From Actinomycetes bacterium (GTDB lineage: Bacteria > Actinomycetota > Acidimicrobiia > Acidimicrobiales > RAAP-2): a stretch of 62,125 nt of DNA. Positions 42,547 to 49,916 of the stretch are shown one piece after another. A program made the position numbers and the translations under genes. Location of the stretch: contig JAJZJC010000004.1 in the NCBI GenBank assembly GCA_021810205.1, positions 1-62,125 on the forward strand, given 5' to 3'. The notes below the pieces were generated by a model. The model ran no database searches and was not told the origin of the DNA. It worked only from the letters and a program-made list of their open reading frames with translations. The first letter of the stretch is position 1. Every line of letters begins with the position of its first letter.

Positions 42547-43770
42547 TCAGCCGCACCCCGAAGCCGACGCCGGCTCCGACATGGCCGTCCAGGGGACACG
42601 GTCCATGTCGATCGGAGACTCCGACTCGCTCATCGGCGGACGCCGTGTCCGGCGCCACTCTTCGGGCAGCCAGGTGCTCCACTGCTCGCGCCTGCGGCCG
42701 GTGAGCGCAATGGCGAACGGCGTGCGCGCCAGGATGCCCGACATGAAGACGCAGGAGAGGAAGACGATCGCGACGCCGACCACCGTGACGAGGGGCCAGG
42801 GAACGACCCCGTTCAACGAGCGCCACGACAGATCTTCGAGGGCGTAGACGAAGAGCATCTGCGCCAGGTAGACCGTGTAGGAGTTGTCGGATCCCGACCG
42901 GGCCAGGACCCGGATGCGCTTGGACCGCCTTGGCTCGACGAGCCACACACCGAAGAGGTACACACAGGCGATCGCGCCGATGTTGAAGGGAATGACGATG
43001 GGCTGCAGCGGGTCGGACGCCGAACCGAGCCACGACCCCGGGTAGGCGTGCGCCGCGAGGAACCACCCTTCCGCCGCTGCAGCAGCGAGCACCGTCGCGC
43101 CGAATATCTTCCAGCCGTTCCGGCACAGCCAATCGTGCACCTGGTCGAGATGCAGGGCGGCCACCATTCCGGCGACCAGATAGAACTGGTACGAGGTGAT
43201 CTCCCTCGTCGCCCAGTAGCCGCGCATGTGGGACGGCAGGACGCCCCAATGCATCAAGCTCGTCATGAGGACCTGTAGCACCAGGCTCGTGCCGAGTAGC
43301 ACCCACGGATGCGCGTACGAGCGCTGCACCACCCAGAAGAGCAACGGGTAGACCGCGTAGAACTGCATGATGACGACCAGGTAGTAGAGCTGGTAGTAGC
43401 CGGTGCCGAGCAAGTAGCCGAAGTGCTGGAAGCCGGTGCCGACCGTGTAGGACTGGCCGGGCATCGTGACCACGAAGTAGATGACCGTCCAGCACACGTA
43501 CGGCAGGGCCACGCTCGTCAGTCGTCGTCGGTAGAAGTATCCGTAGCCAATACGGTGCAGGTCCGAGTACCCGTACGTCAGCATGCACGCCGAAATGAAG
43601 AGGAAGGCTTCCCTCGTCACGTGCAGCAGCATCAGGGATCCCCCGACCGCTGCGAGCGCACCGGGGGCGAACGCGATGAGCGAGTGCGTGGAGACCACGC
43701 CCGCCTGCTTGACCGGCCGCATGGCGTCGACGTGGTCGAGCCGCGGCTTGGACTGCCTCGCCACCGTCAT
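42547..43770 (-). CDS. Acyltransferase 3-family integral membrane protein
   Basis: This 407-residue protein has about ten membrane segments, such as GGSLMLLHVTREAFLFISAC, YVCWTVIYFVV, LYYLVVIMQFYAVYPLLFWV, VLLGTSLVLQVLM and PLVTVVGVAIVFLSCVFMSG. Its layout (an early His, HVTREAFLFISACMLTYGYS, then RRRLTSVALPYVCW) is that of the acyltransferase 3/OafA-type membrane O-acyltransferases, which move acyl groups onto small molecules or glycans across the membrane. It is the last of six same-strand genes, 10 nt after the ligase stop, and is probably the conjugation or export step of that cluster. The C-terminus is a polar cytoplasmic tail. Confidence 0.78.
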   Translation of the reverse strand: MTVARQSKPRLDHVDAMRPVKQAGVVSTHSLIAFAPGALAAVGGSLMLLHVTREAFLFISACMLTYGYSDLHRIGYGYFYRRRLTSVALPYVCWTVIYFVVTMPGQSYTVGTGFQHFGYLLGTGYYQLYYLVVIMQFYAVYPLLFWVVQRSYAHPWVLLGTSLVLQVLMTSLMHWGVLPSHMRGYWATREITSYQFYLVAGMVAALHLDQVHDWLCRNGWKIFGATVLAAAAAEGWFLAAHAYPGSWLGSASDPLQPIVIPFNIGAIACVYLFGVWLVEPRRSKRIRVLARSGSDNSYTVYLAQMLFVYALEDLSWRSLNGVVPWPLVTVVGVAIVFLSCVFMSGILARTPFAIALTGRRREQWSTWLPEEWRRTRRPPMSESESPIDMDRVPWTAMSEPASASGCG

Positions 43771-43780
43771 CTGGCCACCG

Positions 43781-45295
43781 TCACTCCACGAGCAGCGTGT
43801 AAATGGCCGATCCGTCAGCCACCGAACGTCGCCGGACCTTCCCGGTCGCCCCCTGCGGCAGCTGCCCGACGACGTGGAACGCGTACGGCCGCTTGGGACG
43901 CGACAACGCCGCCGCGCAGCGCTCCTGGAGACGAGCGACGAGCGCAGCGGCGTGCGCTCGGTCTTCGGGGCCCTGGACGCCCTCGGCCACCATGTACGCC
44001 ACCGGCACCTGGCCGAGCACCTCGTGGTCCCACCCTACGACAGCGACGGAGGTCACCTGTGGCTCAGCGAGGATGACCTCTTCCACTTCCCGCGGGTAGA
44101 TCTTCTCGCCGCTACGGTTGATCACGTCGTCGACTCTGCCGACCAGGAACAGGTAGCCGTCCTCGTCGAAGTAGCCCAAGTCTCCGGTCTCCAGCCATCC
44201 CTCGGCGTCGAAGCGCTCCTCGTAGCCCGGGCGCGCGTAGGAAGTGATGACGCTCGGACCGCGGATCTCCACGCGCCCGAGGCGGCCGGGCTCGGCGTCC
44301 CCGGCAATGCGGACCTCGGTGGCGACAGGAAGTCCGACGGAGCCTCGCTTGCGCGGTCCGTGCAACGGGTTGGCCGTGATCTGGCTCGCGGCCTCCGTCA
44401 TACCGTAGGTCTCGACAACGGGAATACCGGTGGCGTGCTCGAAGCGCTCGAGCACGGCTCCCGGGAGCGGTGCGGAGGCCGAGCGGGCGAAGCGGATCCC
44501 CGCTGGCACCACCTCGTCCGCCTCCAGGGTGGACAAGCGCGCGAGGATCGCCGGCACTGCGTTCACCCAGGTGATCCGGCGACGTCCCAACGTCTCCCAG
44601 AACCCGCGGCGGTGGAAGCGATCGTCGAGGACAAGCGTGGCACCGGCGACGGCGGTGGCCAGCAACCCGACGACCTCGGCGTTCACGTGGAAGAGCGGGA
44701 GCGGGTTGAAGCCCCGATCGTGGACCGTGAGCTCGTGGTGCACCGCGATCGCCTGCGCGGTGTGCAGCAGGCGCTTCTCGTCGATGTGGATGACCTTGGG
44801 CACGCCGGTGGTGCCCGACGTGGAGAGCAACAGTCCTCCCCCACCCAAGAGCGGGGACCCCGAGCCGTCGAGCACGAACGCTCCCGCCGGCATCGTCAGC
44901 CACTCCGACGGGCCGGGGGACGGACGGTCCGAGACGACCAGGCTCGCGCCCGTGCGCTCCAAGACTGCCAGGAGCTCAGCGTCGGTCGCCCGTGGATCGA
45001 ACGGTGCTGCCACCCGCCCGGAAGCCAGGACGCCAACGAACACCGCGGTGAAGTCGATCGGATCGGCGACGGCGAGGCCGACGACGGATCCCGGCATCGA
45101 GCCGAGATCGTCGAGCAATCCTGCCCAGCCCTGGGCGGAGCGCAGCAGCTCGCCATACACCAGCGCTCGCCCGTCAGCGGCCGGCTCGACGTAGGGGTGC
45201 TCGGGCGACTGTTGCGCCCTCAGGCGGAGCAGCTCTGCGAAGTCGACCGTGACCCGCGCCCTGCGAAGAGCCGTGGCGTCGGTCTTCATGTGCAT
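43781..45295 (-). CDS. AMP-dependent acyl-CoA synthetase/ligase
   Basis: This ANL-superfamily enzyme of 504 residues activates a carboxylate as acyl-AMP and usually forms a CoA thioester. Motifs: the P-loop LLLSTSGTTGVPKVIH, PLPLFHVNAEVVGLL, WVNAVPAILARL, VVETYGMTEAASQITANPL, the hinge YLFLVGRVDDVINRSGEKI with YFDEDG before it, and the catalytic Lys in GQLPQGATGKVRRR. No carrier-protein domain is fused. The ATG overlaps the VOC gene's stop (TGATG). In context it would activate a product of the upstream ComA-like pathway or the acyl group later used by the membrane acyltransferase; this role is inferred. Confidence 0.88.
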   Translation of the reverse strand: MHMKTDATALRRARVTVDFAELLRLRAQQSPEHPYVEPAADGRALVYGELLRSAQGWAGLLDDLGSMPGSVVGLAVADPIDFTAVFVGVLASGRVAAPFDPRATDAELLAVLERTGASLVVSDRPSPGPSEWLTMPAGAFVLDGSGSPLLGGGGLLLSTSGTTGVPKVIHIDEKRLLHTAQAIAVHHELTVHDRGFNPLPLFHVNAEVVGLLATAVAGATLVLDDRFHRRGFWETLGRRRITWVNAVPAILARLSTLEADEVVPAGIRFARSASAPLPGAVLERFEHATGIPVVETYGMTEAASQITANPLHGPRKRGSVGLPVATEVRIAGDAEPGRLGRVEIRGPSVITSYARPGYEERFDAEGWLETGDLGYFDEDGYLFLVGRVDDVINRSGEKIYPREVEEVILAEPQVTSVAVVGWDHEVLGQVPVAYMVAEGVQGPEDRAHAAALVARLQERCAAALSRPKRPYAFHVVGQLPQGATGKVRRRSVADGSAIYTLLVE

Positions 45296-45693
45296 CAGTA
45301 GATCATCCGTGGATCTCGGTAGTGCTTGAACTCCACGAGGTTGTCGAAGGGGTCCTGCAGCACGAAGGTCCGGTGCACTTCCGCCGTGCCCTCGAAGCGC
45401 GTGGCGACGTCACGGAAGAAGGGGATCTTGCGAAGCCGGGCAAGCTCTAGGAGCAGATCGAAGTCTTCGGTCCGGCGGAACGTCACGCCGAAGTGACGCG
45501 GGTACAACGACAGCGGATCGGCGGTCGGCGTGACGTCGGTGAGGTGGCACACGACTTGGTCGCCGAAGAAGTCGAGGGTGATCCTGTCGGCGTACGTGCG
45601 CGCGAGCTTGCAGCCAAGCTGTGTGACGTAGAAGCGGCGCGCCTCGTCCAGGCTGCCCACCGGGATGGCGAGGTGGAAGACGTGGTCTCTCAT
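45295..45693 (-). CDS. VOC-superfamily (glyoxalase/dioxygenase fold) protein
   Basis: This 132-residue protein has two beta-alpha-beta-beta-beta modules: HVFHLAIPVGSLDEARRFY with QLGCKLARTYADRITLDFFG, then YPRHFGVTFRRTEDFDLLLE with FVLQDPFDNLVEFKHYRD. His, Glu and His residues in the expected metal positions (HLAIP, HFGVT, EFKHY) suggest a metal site. The C-terminal FKHYRDPRMIY is typical of VOC oxidoreductase-like proteins. Its ATG overlaps the comA-like stop (ATGA) and its TGA overlaps the ligase start, so it is locked into the cluster. The reaction is unknown; isomerase, lyase and dioxygenase are all possible. Confidence 0.85.
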   Translation of the reverse strand: MRDHVFHLAIPVGSLDEARRFYVTQLGCKLARTYADRITLDFFGDQVVCHLTDVTPTADPLSLYPRHFGVTFRRTEDFDLLLELARLRKIPFFRDVATRFEGTAEVHRTFVLQDPFDNLVEFKHYRDPRMIY

Positions 45694-46484
45694 TCGACGC
45701 CCTCCACCCACTGGTGCTCGTACTCCTCGAACTCGGTCAAGGTGTCGGCCCTGAGGCCGAGACGTAGGGTCTCGAGCGCGAGCACCGCGGTCGGAGCGAC
45801 ATTTCCGAGGTTCACGTCCGGGCCGACACGCTTGACCATGTGGGCCTGCAGGCTCGTCGTCGGCGCCTCGAACATGAGGCGCTCGACGGGCAGTTCGTTC
45901 ACGACCTCCTCGACGAGGCCAATGCGCAACTGGCCATCGGCGTGGCAGATCCCTGAGCTCCCGCTCTCACGCGCCTCGAGGGTGACCAAGCTGGCCCCTG
46001 CCGAAAGGTCGTCCTCTGCGTACTCGATCCAGCACCGCGGGCTGAGCAGGTCCGAGCGGTCCGCATCCTTGAAGCCCACTTCGGAGATCACGGTGAATTC
46101 GTGCGCAAGCTTTCGGACATAGCCGGCCTTCTCCAGGTTCGACATGTCGATGGTGCCGTTGGACACCTCGACATGGCTGCACTGCCACTCGTGACAGAGA
46201 GCCCGGAAGTCGTCGAAGCGGTCCTGGAGCACGTGCTTTTCGAAGAGCGTGCCGCCGAAGTAGAAGCCGACGTCGTGCGCCCGGAGAAGATCGATCTTTC
46301 CTGCCAGTTCGCCGGACACCACGGCGGTGCCCCAGCCGAACTTCACGAAGTCCAGGTACTCTCCGGCACTCGACACGATGTCGCGCAGCGTGCCCAAGGG
46401 CACGCCACCGTCCACGACCATCGTGATGCCGGAGCGGCGCGGCTTAGTCTGTCGTGCAGGAAGTCGGAGCGTGGTGTGGTTCAT
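45690..46484 (-). CDS. Phosphosulfolactate synthase-like protein (ComA family)
   Basis: ComA adds sulfite to phosphoenolpyruvate to give (R)-phosphosulfolactate, the first step of coenzyme M synthesis in methanogens and of sulfolactate synthesis in Bacillus. The 264 residues keep the TIM-barrel signatures: ITMVVDGGVPLGTLRDIV, YLDFVKFGWGTAVV, YFGGTLFEKHVLQ, HVEVSNGTIDMS, FTVISEVGFKD, ASLVTLEARESGSSGI, RLMFEAPTTSLQAHMVKR and ALETLRLGLRADTL. The methanogen DKG is DGG here. A plant HSA32-like non-enzymatic role is an alternative. A strong ribosome-binding site (AGGAGAG) precedes ATG 46484. A phosphatase directly upstream could act as ComB. Confidence 0.85.
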   Translation of the reverse strand: MNHTTLRLPARQTKPRRSGITMVVDGGVPLGTLRDIVSSAGEYLDFVKFGWGTAVVSGELAGKIDLLRAHDVGFYFGGTLFEKHVLQDRFDDFRALCHEWQCSHVEVSNGTIDMSNLEKAGYVRKLAHEFTVISEVGFKDADRSDLLSPRCWIEYAEDDLSAGASLVTLEARESGSSGICHADGQLRIGLVEEVVNELPVERLMFEAPTTSLQAHMVKRVGPDVNLGNVAPTAVLALETLRLGLRADTLTEFEEYEHQWVEGVE

Positions 46485-46508
46485 GGGCTCTCTCCTTTCA
46501 CTTCGGGT

Positions 46509-47099
46509 TCAGCCGGTCAGGGCGGGTTCAGCGACGGAGCGGACGATGGCGTCGCAGTTGGCGACATCCACCCATGGCATGTCGTCAGGCGCGATCCCGT
46601 CGAGCCACGCGAGCAGGACACGTACGACGCCCCCGTGGCAGATCAGCGCGATGTCGCCGTGCTCGGACACGCGCAGCAGCTCGGCGGCGCACTCGCTCGC
46701 ACGCCGGTAGAGCTGGCGGATCGACTCACCGCCTTCAGGCGCCGCGTCAGCGTCCACCACCCGGCCGTTGGCGATCCCGGAACGGTCAGCGCCCAAAAGC
46801 GCGCTCGGCATCCCCTCGGCGGTGCCGAGAGAACGCTCCCGGAGCCGCGCGTCGGTTCTCACCTCGAGCCCGAGCGACCGACCGATCGCTTCGGCAGTCT
46901 GGCGCGCACGGCGCAGATCACTGGCGTACAGCGCCGTGATCTGCTCACCCGCGAGCGCACGAGCGCGTGCTCGAGATTGGTCGATCCCGACGGCGGTCAA
47001 CGCAGGAAGCGTGACCTGCCCCTGCACGAGTCCCAACGCGTTCCACGTGCTCTCGCCGTGACGAACGAGCCACAGGCGACGAGGGAGGAAGTCGTGCAC
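46509..47099 (-). CDS. Histidine phosphatase (phosphoglycerate mutase-like)
   Basis: This is a branch-1 histidine phosphatase of about 196 residues. The catalytic motif is LWLVRHGESTWNALGLVQGQ, the second Arg region is YASDLRRARQTAEAIG, the acid is in RLRERSLGTAEGM, and the second His is in IALICHGGVVRVLLAW. Starts at GTG 47099 or 47114 are both possible and neither has a good ribosome-binding site. The stop is 24 nt before the ComA-like ATG. Known sulfolactate pathways use an unrelated phosphatase (ComB) after ComA, which is absent here. This enzyme is a plausible replacement; that is inference. Confidence 0.85.
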   Translation of the reverse strand: MHDFLPRRLWLVRHGESTWNALGLVQGQVTLPALTAVGIDQSRARARALAGEQITALYASDLRRARQTAEAIGRSLGLEVRTDARLRERSLGTAEGMPSALLGADRSGIANGRVVDADAAPEGGESIRQLYRRASECAAELLRVSEHGDIALICHGGVVRVLLAWLDGIAPDDMPWVDVANCDAIVRSVAEPALTG

Positions 47100-47127
47100 C
47101 CTTCGAGAGTGCACGCTCGGGCTTGGG

Positions 47128-47170
47128 ATTCGGTTGGAAAACCTTGTGAATTGCCTGAGTGCGACCGAAT
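47128..47170 (-). promoter_or_regulatory. Inverted repeat in the gap before the phosphatase gene
   Basis: ATTCGGT (47128-47134) and ACCGAAT (47164-47170) are perfect inverted copies 29 nt apart in the 77-nt moeZ-phosphatase gap. The intervening DNA is locally AT-rich (GGTTTTCC, AATTCAC). It could be an operator or an RNA stem for the ComA cluster. Confidence 0.3.
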
Positions 47171-47176
47171 TTCTCG

Positions 47177-48337
47177 CTAAGAGCGGGGATGGGGCATGCA
47201 GAGATCGTCGTACTCGGCGATCACGATCTCCGGCGCGTGCTCGCCGCAAGCGGGACAGTTGGGGTCACGGCGGACCTTGAAGGTCCGAAACTGCTCTTCG
47301 AGCGCATCGTAGGCAAGGAGGCGTCCGACGAGCGGATCGCCGAGGCCGAGCAGCATCTTGATCGCCTCCACCGCCTGGATGGAGCCGACGATGCCGGGCA
47401 GGACGCCGAGGACTCCCGCTTCCGCGCAGGAGGGAGCAAGCTCGGCGGGCGGCGGCTCGGGGATGAGGCAGCGGTAGCAGGGACCGTTGTACGGATCGAA
47501 GACGGTCACCTGCCCTTCGAATCGGAAGATCGAGCCGTGCACGACCGGAATGCGCTTCAGGAGCGAGGCGTCGTTCACGAGGTAGCGGGTCGGGAAATTG
47601 TCGGTGCCGTCGACGATGAGGTCGTAGCCGTCGAAGATGTCGAGCACGTTGTCGGCGCCGAGGCGGACGTCGTAGGTGGCGACCGTGAGATCGGGGTTCA
47701 TGGCGGTGAGCGTGCGCTTGGCCGAGTCGACCTTGCGGTCACCGATCCGGTCCATGTTGTGCAGGACCTGCCGCTGGAGGTTCGACGCGTCCACGACGTC
47801 CATGTCGATGATGCCGATCGTCCCGACACCTGCCGCGGCAAGGTAGAGCGCGGCGGGTGATCCGAGGCCACCGGCGCCAAGGAGGAGCACCTTGGAGTCG
47901 AGGAGCTTCAGCTGGCCCGTCTCGGCCACCTCTGGCAGCAGCAGGTGCCGCTGGTAGCGGTTCCTCTGATCGGCCGACAGGGTCCGGGGCGCTTCCCAGC
48001 GGCGGCCCTCGTCCTTCCAGCGGTTGAAACCGCCGGCCATCGACACGACGTCGGAGTAGCCGAGGTCCCCGAGGGTCTTCGCGGCGAACGCGGAACGCGC
48101 GCCGCCCGCGCAGTACACGACGACCGGCCGGCTCTTGTCGGTCAGCCGCCCCTCCACGGCGAACTCCAGGTTGCCGCGCGGGACGTGCACCGCCCCGGGA
48201 ATGGCCCCCTGCTCGTACTCGTCCGGCTCACGGACGTCGAGAAAGGTCGCCGTCCCGATGCGCCTCTCGGCGTCCTCGGGGGCCACCTCGACGATGGCCG
48301 CCTTTGCCTGTGCCAATAGGTCACGTGGCGTCGTCAT
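47177..48337 (-). CDS. Rhodanese-MoeB/ThiF fusion (MoeZ-like) with N-terminal rhodanese
   Basis: The protein adenylates the C-terminus of a sulfur-carrier protein and passes sulfur to it. Residues about 15-115 are a rhodanese domain (TFLDVREPDEYEQGAIPG, active Cys in VVYCAGGARSAF). The rest is the E1-like domain: NRYQRHLLLPEVAETGQ, the ATP motif [51 protein letters not shown], and the zinc cysteines CYRCLIP and CPACG. MoeZ and MOCS3 carry the rhodanese at the C-terminus; here the order is reversed. ATG 48337 has TAAAGT 7 nt upstream. It is the first of six same-strand genes. Confidence 0.9.
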   Translation of the reverse strand: MTTPRDLLAQAKAAIVEVAPEDAERRIGTATFLDVREPDEYEQGAIPGAVHVPRGNLEFAVEGRLTDKSRPVVVYCAGGARSAFAAKTLGDLGYSDVVSMAGGFNRWKDEGRRWEAPRTLSADQRNRYQRHLLLPEVAETGQLKLLDSKVLLLGAGGLGSPAALYLAAAGVGTIGIIDMDVVDASNLQRQVLHNMDRIGDRKVDSAKRTLTAMNPDLTVATYDVRLGADNVLDIFDGYDLIVDGTDNFPTRYLVNDASLLKRIPVVHGSIFRFEGQVTVFDPYNGPCYRCLIPEPPPAELAPSCAEAGVLGVLPGIVGSIQAVEAIKMLLGLGDPLVGRLLAYDALEEQFRTFKVRRDPNCPACGEHAPEIVIAEYDDLCMPHPRS

Positions 48338-49067: not shown

Positions 49068-49916
49068 CTACTTCTTGCCGCAGACCACGTACGGCTTCAG
49101 GGTCATCACCTGGCCCGAGGGCAACGGCGAGGTCACGACAGCGACGGTCTCCCAGCCCCCCGTCACCGGATACGACGACCTGAGCGCCACGTCGGCGTTC
49201 TCGGCCGATGTCGACTTGGCCGTGCTGGCTCCCGATGCTGTCCCGGCCCCAGTCGCTCCGGAGCCCGCAGTCGACGTCGACGAGCCCCCCGACGCCGTCC
49301 CACCGGTCTTGGCACTCGTCGAGGCGTTGGCGGTCGCCACCTGACCCCCCCCACCAAGGAGGACTGCACCCGCCGGGCACGACGACACTGCCGTGAGGAC
49401 AGTGCCCACGGACGGGTCGACTGCGGTCTTCATCACGGGCTTCGCCAGTATCGAGCTCGCGGCGATGGTGCCGGCCGGCCCTTGCTTTCCGGTCGCTCCA
49501 CGTGGTCCAGCAGGCCCCTCGGGGCCCGCCGGGCCTGCGGCGCCGGTCCTCCCCTGTGGGCCGGCGGGACCCTGGATGCCCTGCGGACCCTGCGCGCCCT
49601 CTGGCCCAATCGGCCCTTGGGCACCCCGGGCACCGGTGAGACCGATGGAGCCACGCGCGCCAGTCGCCGGGGAGTGCAGCAGGGCGGCGACGCCGAGCGC
49701 CATGCCGCCTGCGCCGAGACCGAGCGCGACGACCAGCAACGCACCGAGTGGTCCCCGTCCCCACCGTCCGCTGCTCGTCTCCGCGGTGGGCCGGAGCTCG
49801 CCCGTGGAACGGGCGGCCGCTCCGGGCTCCACCACGTGGAGTGCCGTGGGCTCTGCCCCCTGGCCCGGCACCTCCGGCCCCCCCGCCTGCTGCGCTTGCC
49901 GCGAAGCCCCTAGCAT
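49068..49916 (-). CDS. Membrane-anchored collagen-like protein
   Basis: The 282-residue protein has a polar N-terminus, one membrane helix ([21 protein letters not shown]), and then 21 uninterrupted Gly-X-Y triplets (from [20 protein letters not shown] to [15 protein letters not shown]). A C-terminal domain follows that is rich in Gly, Ser and Thr, with two Cys ([14 protein letters not shown] and YVVCGKK). The triplets hold many Pro, Gln and charged residues, as in bacterial collagens that trimerise outside the cell. A GGGAGGAG ribosome-binding site precedes the ATG at 49916. It is divergent from the MtrAB-like genes and could be controlled by them. Function unknown; adhesin or surface fibre is likely. 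Confidence 0.88.

Follow-up and report, generated by a model that had tools for sequence, protein, structure and literature searches.

This analysis concerns a gene cluster built around a ComA-like (2R)-phospho-3-sulfolactate synthase in an Actinomycetes genome assembly of 3.0 Mb (72% complete). The window, i.e. the whole stretch of DNA that was analysed, comprises 62,125 nucleotides of contig JAJZJC010000004.1. On its minus strand, the original prediction had placed six consecutive genes at positions 42547-48337, coding in this order for a rhodanese-MoeB fusion, a histidine phosphatase, a ComA-like protein, a VOC protein, an AMP ligase, and a membrane acyltransferase 3 (AT3). Their number, strand, order and junctions are borne out by the coordinates of the open reading frames (ORFs), and their families by Pfam (Table 1). 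The MoeB and phosphatase genes are separated by 77 nt, and the phosphatase and ComA genes by 24 nt. The ComA and VOC genes overlap by 4 nt (ATGA), the VOC and ligase genes overlap by 1 nt, and the AT3 gene follows after a gap of 10 nt. The phosphatase ORF begins with GTG, and alternative starts are possible.

Table 1. Genes at the ComA locus of the window, with family matches and putative assignments.
Product	Position	Strand	Family matches and remarks
Rhodanese-MoeB fusion	47177..48337	-	PF00899+PF00581, NCBIfam PRK08762; neighbour, outside the conserved cluster
Histidine phosphatase (branch 1), 196 aa	46509..47099	-	PF00300; putative phosphosulfolactate phosphatase
ComA-like (2R)-phospho-3-sulfolactate synthase, 264 aa	45690..46484	-	PF02679
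VOC protein, 132 aa	45295..45693	-	PF00903; Fos-like H7/H67/E121 triad
ANL-superfamily acyl-CoA/AMP ligase, 504 aa	43781..45295	-	PF00501+PF13193; putative sulfolactate-CoA ligase
Membrane acyltransferase 3 (AT3), 407 aa	42547..43770	-	PF01757; R-X10-H motif R18/H29

A search of 61 genomes, including 13 of the window's genus, identified ComA in 15 genomes overall and in 11 of the 13 from the genus. All of these 11 show the order ComA-VOC-ligase; AT3 is next in ten of them, and in the remaining one (G010) the contig ends. Related loci were sampled as the best 80 of 145 relatives, so that the sample is weighted towards sequences close to the ComA of the window. After L120 (a duplicate of L056), L119 (which shares its contig with L048) and nine divergent-ComA loci had been dropped, 87 ComA loci were counted, 56 outside the Bacillota and Bacteroidota and 31 within these phyla (L and G numbers denote loci and genomes). 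The window proteins were run as tblastn queries over the fetched loci, and the ORFs were also clustered by homology. The 56 loci contain a VOC gene in 51 cases, a ligase in 48, an AT3 in 46, a histidine phosphatase in 44, and ComB in none; the AT3 count is composed of 39 neighbourhood labels and seven tblastn hits (L026, L042, L044, L081, L091, L100, L016). The corresponding numbers for the 31 loci are 24 for VOC, 23 for ComB, four for the ligase (three Alicyclobacillus loci and L090, whose ligase is just 24% identical), three for AT3, and zero for the histidine phosphatase.

The genes occur in at least four orders. The histidine phosphatase gene lies upstream on the same strand, upstream and divergent, or downstream and convergent; AT3-ligase precedes ComA in Alicyclobacillus and G034, and ligase-AT3 precedes it in Pseudonocardiales and G057. 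This variation argues for selection on the gene set and against its inheritance as one block, and because the arrangement is found repeatedly in different genera and phyla, it is more than a chance association. The neighbourhood anticipated by the original prediction is thus conserved in relatives, as a recurring set of genes and not in one fixed order. Among the carriers are the named strains Trebonia kvetii 15TR583, Alicyclobacillus herbarius DSM 13609, A. kakegawensis NBRC 103104, and A. shizuokensis NBRC 103103.

The conserved cluster consists of five genes, which code for ComA, VOC protein, ligase, AT3, and histidine phosphatase. The rhodanese-MoeB fusion, originally counted as a sixth member, was considered as a sulfur-transfer link of the pathway and rejected, since it scores as the housekeeping MoeB equivalog PRK08762 (568.8 bits versus a cut-off of 449) and is found near ComA in the window's genus alone. 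There it accompanies ComA in seven of the 11 ComA-bearing genomes, and none of the loci fetched from other genera contains it. Two of the other four contigs end shortly upstream of ComA; L017 and L021 continue for several kb without MoeB.

The linkage was also assessed in an even sample of 247 genomes from the window's class, 16 with and 231 without ComA, using subfamily thresholds that we set ourselves. VOC relatives of at least 60% identity were detected in seven genomes, directly beside ComA in each. Ligase matches at E<=1e-90, for which the six best first-look candidates were scored per genome, were found in six genomes, always beside ComA, and phosphatase matches at E<=1e-28 (query: the relative from L048) in five, all inside ComA loci. 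None of these close relatives occurs in the 231 ComA-less genomes; weaker VOC matches of 35-40% identity in seven of the ComA-less class genomes were counted as other proteins. Eight loci of the same class (L122-L127, L129, L131) encode the divergent ComA type (35-43% identity), and none of the cluster genes was detected in the stretches fetched for them. In a sample of 329 genomes around an Alicyclobacillus, ComA is present in 119 (116 over the cut-off) and the VOC protein in two, both of which possess ComA; the VOC gene is adjacent to it in one and on another contig in the other.

ComA forms phosphosulfolactate from phosphoenolpyruvate (PEP) and sulfite, and ComB then takes off the phosphate. 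The ComA of the window reaches 274 bits with PF02679 (cut-off 25.2), and its closest solved relative is 1u83 of Bacillus subtilis (258.7 bits). At least 97% of 83 ComAs agree in 63 positions, and B. subtilis YitD has the conserved residue at 62 of these; 57 of the 63 are aligned in M. jannaschii ComA, and 52 are identical there. Residue K139 of the window protein aligns with the catalytic K137 of the M. jannaschii enzyme, its general acid, and is invariant in the 83 ComAs. The score for the archaeal equivalog TIGR03849 (222 bits) lies below the cut-off of 280, which marks the protein as bacterial-type rather than archaeal-type. Its identification as ComA-like holds, as it retains the conserved residues that the enzymes of B. 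subtilis and M. jannaschii have in common, and it is very probably a true phosphosulfolactate synthase. For the yitCD genes of B. subtilis, a role in making phosphosulfolactate has been inferred, and about 5% of the spore dry weight is sulfolactate (PMC517825). Near comB-comA, a divergently oriented gene of the PAPS-reductase family is located in 15 of the 31 Bacillota/Bacteroidota loci (L079, L083, L084, L103 and others), and in L084 it is followed by genes for ATP sulfurylase and APS kinase, which together probably supply sulfite.

The nearest solved relative of the histidine phosphatase is a glucosyl-3-phosphoglycerate phosphatase (71 bits), and the 17 NCBIfam families that it matched, among them the named equivalogs CobC, PspA and Gpm, all remained under their cut-offs. 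The cluster-linked phosphatases contain the RHG motif in 40 of 40 cases and the HGG motif in 39 of 40. In a phylogenetic tree, most of them have shorter branches than four further phosphatases encoded by the window's genome. Distant are the phosphatase counted for L016 (branch length 2.21), without which the count is 43/56, and a second one in L020 (1.74). The bootstrap had not settled and 17 of the 41 inner forks are open, and the tree alone is no proof of one family. Within 7 kb of ComA, the 87 loci contain a histidine phosphatase in 44 cases, ComB in 23, both in none, and neither in 20. ComB (PF04029) is absent from the window locus and from the window's genome at its given completeness, and 35 of 42 phosphatase-linked genomes tested, many of them incomplete metagenome-assembled genomes, lack a PF04029 match. 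The suggestion that the histidine phosphatase replaces ComB fits these data. The contrast is largely one between phyla, and this confounding means that it supports a replacement without proving it. We consider it probable that the phosphatase acts on the product of ComA.

The VOC protein shares 62% identity with the structure 3rri from Alicyclobacillus acidocaldarius, for which no function is named. A structural model (predicted local distance difference test score 94) matched 3rri best, followed by fosfomycin-resistance and other VOC proteins. Among structures with a known function, FosA, FosB and FosX come nearest (Z 12.7-14.6; 12-20% identity). Much of the VOC superfamily follows closely (Z 12-14), so the fold match leaves the chemistry unfixed; that the structural matches listed include no VOC protein of known sulfonate function proves nothing. 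Residues H7, H67 and E121 (H6, H66 and E120 in the chain without Met) are invariant in 33 VOC sequences and correspond in place to the H-H-E metal triad of Fos proteins. Several Arg, Lys and His residues are also conserved in the 33 sequences and could hold an anionic substrate. Because the protein accompanies ComA also in Bacillota that have neither ligase nor AT3, its reaction is probably close to sulfolactate or phosphosulfolactate itself. Some carriers may do without it, since L056 keeps the remaining cluster genes in its absence.

The ligase exceeds the cut-offs of both PF00501 (AMP-binding) and PF13193 (C-terminal domain). Its three best solved matches are oxalate-CoA ligases (220, 199 and 190 bits), the next are two succinylbenzoate-CoA ligases (178 and 174 bits), and then comes FadD13 (169 bits). 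With respect to named ANL equivalogs, the 25 listed of 106 NCBIfam families were all under their cut-offs. At each position of the motifs LPLxHxNA, RSASAPL and YGMTEAAS, 47 to 49 of 49 sequences agree, which points to one substrate common to all. Among the oxalate contacts of AAE3 are His214, Ser289 and His319; at these positions, the ligase of the window aligns a His, a Ser, and a Ser instead of the second His. As the nearest solved relatives are CoA ligases for small diacids, the comparison leans to an activation of the sulfonated acid itself, to which we give an even chance. Sulfonated acyl thioesters of coenzyme A (CoA) have a precedent in 3-sulfopropionyl-CoA, which derives from a different small sulfonate and is made by ligases of another family (PMC11489063).

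The AT3 of the window matches PF01757 with 102.5 bits. The R-X10-H motif, whose residues were reported to be essential in the tested AT3 proteins (PMC9833829), begins no later than residue 120 in 41 of 45 AT3 ORFs; among the four ORFs missing it are three that were apparently given too early a start and one that is truncated. According to the literature, AT3 proteins form pores in which acyl-CoA is offered to an extracytosolic acceptor (PMC12423673, PMC9833829), and some of them make anionic O-succinyl groups on glycans (PMC9558356). That the AT3 of the cluster moves a sulfonated acyl group outward is a candidate function whose probability we place just below even. A secreted SGNH-family protein is encoded nearby in 23 of the 56 loci outside the Bacillota and Bacteroidota. 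The Pfam matches of these proteins are at or under the cut-off; they have invariant Gly/Ser, GFN and His-Pro positions, and their best fold matches are GDSL esterases (template modelling score ~0.5). In sister species (L032, L033, L035, L037, L038) a second AT3, 31-34% identical to that of the window, and an SGNH gene follow the operon. An SGNH homolog of 53% identity is located elsewhere in the window's genome (G000:C61:24450-25292).

Several neighbouring genes were recorded beside the cluster. In one clade (L050, L051, L054, L055, L058, L061, L064, L075), a CitMHS/ArsB-like transporter gene lies upstream and a CLC-type chloride channel gene downstream of the operon. In L056, L067, L071 and L074, an aldehyde dehydrogenase gene is situated directly upstream of ComA, between ComA and the SGNH gene. 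Its enzyme might form or use up an aldehyde, for example sulfolactaldehyde; it was over the cut-off of none of the 25 families listed of the 44 NCBIfam families matched. A collagen-like Gly-X-Y repeat (PF01391) is present in a predicted protein encoded at positions 49068-49916 of the window, near genes resembling a two-component system.

The following pathway would account for the gene set. ComA would add sulfite to PEP, and the resulting phosphosulfolactate would be dephosphorylated to sulfolactate by the histidine phosphatase instead of ComB. The ANL ligase would then convert sulfolactate, or a form of it modified by the VOC protein, to an acyl-CoA thioester, from which AT3 would transfer the sulfolactyl group across the membrane to an extracytoplasmic glycan or lipid, assisted in many relatives by the secreted SGNH protein. 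The acceptor would thereby receive an O-sulfolactyl decoration, the sulfonated counterpart of the O-succinyl groups made by AT3 proteins. Gene content and motifs are observed, and each reaction is predicted from them; we thus propose only tentatively, with somewhat less than even confidence, that the cluster serves sulfolactate biosynthesis and surface decoration. The wider proposal, namely that at least two phyla decorate a surface glycan or lipid with sulfolactyl groups by a five-gene pathway in which a histidine phosphatase stands in for ComB and a new Fos-like VOC protein acts on a C3 sulfonate, is rather doubtful.

A number of observations weigh against a decoration pathway. For the phosphatase step, these are the confounding with phylum mentioned above and the 20 loci with neither phosphatase nearby, in some of which the contig ends. 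Seven of the 42 phosphatase-linked genomes carry a PF04029 protein elsewhere; in the three Alicyclobacillus carriers, both phosphatases are missing from the locus and PF04029 from the whole genome; and G204, which is 97% complete, possesses ComA-VOC-ligase-AT3 at a contig end with no phosphatase match at E<=1e-28. The VOC protein is given no assigned reaction, is missing from five of the 56 loci including L056, and stands beside ComA also where ligase and AT3 do not occur. The kinship of the ligase to oxalate-CoA ligases amounts to 220 bits, against 169 for FadD13, and the position aligned with the oxalate contact His319 of AAE3 is a Ser. At the window locus, trimmed SGNH queries detected no SGNH gene, and the second AT3 of the sister species is absent. 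A sulfite supply in the host is plausible but unproven: PF01507 has three matches in its genome, and this broad family also matched 14 of 14 control genomes. Finally, activity and product are predictions.

Four other explanations were considered, two of which retain the ligase and AT3 as partners. The original prediction had named a sulfonated lipid head group as one possible product, and indeed the ligase could activate a fatty acid and AT3 could acylate the hydroxyl of sulfolactate, or of its VOC-modified form, to give an O-acyl-sulfolactate membrane lipid. In favour of this route, FadD13 and families of fatty-acyl ligases are also among the matches of the ligase, and some AT3 proteins move groups beyond acetyl, e.g. 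isovaleryl (PMC9558356). Moreover, the cluster occurs in some acidophiles, whose lipids are unusual. However, the five best solved relatives of the ligase act on oxalate or succinylbenzoate, the acceptors of AT3 proteins are normally outside the membrane whereas sulfolactate would arise inside, and the SGNH partner in relatives suits a surface transfer. A sulfonated lipid is therefore possible but not favoured, and we regard this route as unlikely. If AT3 instead acylated a diffusible scaffold, the product would be a secreted small sulfonated metabolite or an antibiotic-like conjugate. This would agree with the tailoring of antibiotics by AT3 proteins (PMC9558356) and with the genes for an MFS (major facilitator superfamily) or CitMHS-like transporter that adjoin some cluster copies. 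Among 20 annotated neighbour representatives, however, there is no polyketide synthase, nonribosomal peptide synthetase or glycosyltransferase, most neighbours found at a single locus being unannotated, and we consider a secreted product quite improbable.

The remaining two explanations concern ComA itself. As the first enzyme of the coenzyme M pathway, it might serve to make coenzyme M, a role known from methanogens and from bacteria that oxidise alkenes. Yet neither a sulfolactate dehydrogenase nor a sulfopyruvate decarboxylase is found among the annotated genes of the window and the neighbour representatives (ComC and ComDE were not searched genome-wide), and the eight divergent ComAs of the class come without cluster genes in the fetched stretch, which makes such a role very unlikely. 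Equally remote is an HSA32-like homolog that is not a phosphosulfolactate synthase. Family membership alone is no proof of activity, but the agreement with YitD in all but one of the 63 conserved positions and the invariant equivalent of Lys137 argue for an active synthase (plant HSA32 was not compared), as do the role inferred for yitCD and the richness of B. subtilis spores in sulfolactate (PMC517825).

To our knowledge, little is known of why bacteria other than spore formers and coenzyme M makers build sulfolactate. If the proposed decoration pathway is true, it would represent a new anionic surface chemistry, with a dedicated route that makes sulfolactate and places it outside the membrane, and it would give a use to the VOC structure 3rri and to a phosphatase other than ComB. 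Because named strains carry the genes, each step is open to assay. In full-text literature searches on the pathway and on AT3-SGNH systems, whose scope leaves out preprints and most subscription papers, no description of the ComA-VOC-ligase-AT3 cluster and no paper on phosphosulfolactate together with a histidine phosphatase was found; the original statement that no described pathway has this gene set stands within that scope. In the available text of PMC10562698, comA of Alicyclobacillus is noted with its textbook reaction and no cluster is named, and in that of the AT3 review PMC9558356 the strings 'sulfo' and 'lactyl' occur zero times.

Among known systems, yitCD (ComB-ComA) of Bacillus has the same kind of ComA (1u83), and 24 of the 31 Bacillota/Bacteroidota loci share the VOC gene, usually right after comA (upstream in L089), the B. 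subtilis-group loci L101, L103 and L104 being without it. Unlike the cluster, these loci contain ComB (23/31) and never the histidine phosphatase, and they lack ligase and AT3 except for the three Alicyclobacillus loci; the unrelated-looking ligase of L090 is ~6 kb off. The methanogen coenzyme M pathway (ComA-ComB-ComC-ComDE) has its first enzyme in common with the window locus, which in contrast is without ComB and whose annotated neighbours are other enzymes. The VOC protein resembles FosA, FosB and FosX in fold and in the places of the H-H-E triad; it differs in its low identity, its tie to ComA loci and its other conserved residues. With AT3-SGNH systems such as OafB and OatA, the cluster shares the pairing of AT3 with a secreted SGNH protein, here as separate polypeptides and in relatives rather than at the window locus. 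The O-succinyltransferases MdoC/OpgC and ExoH offer a parallel in that a stand-alone AT3 would place a short, negatively charged acyl group on a glycan of the surface; in the cluster, this group would be sulfolactyl, delivered as a CoA ester by a dedicated ligase.

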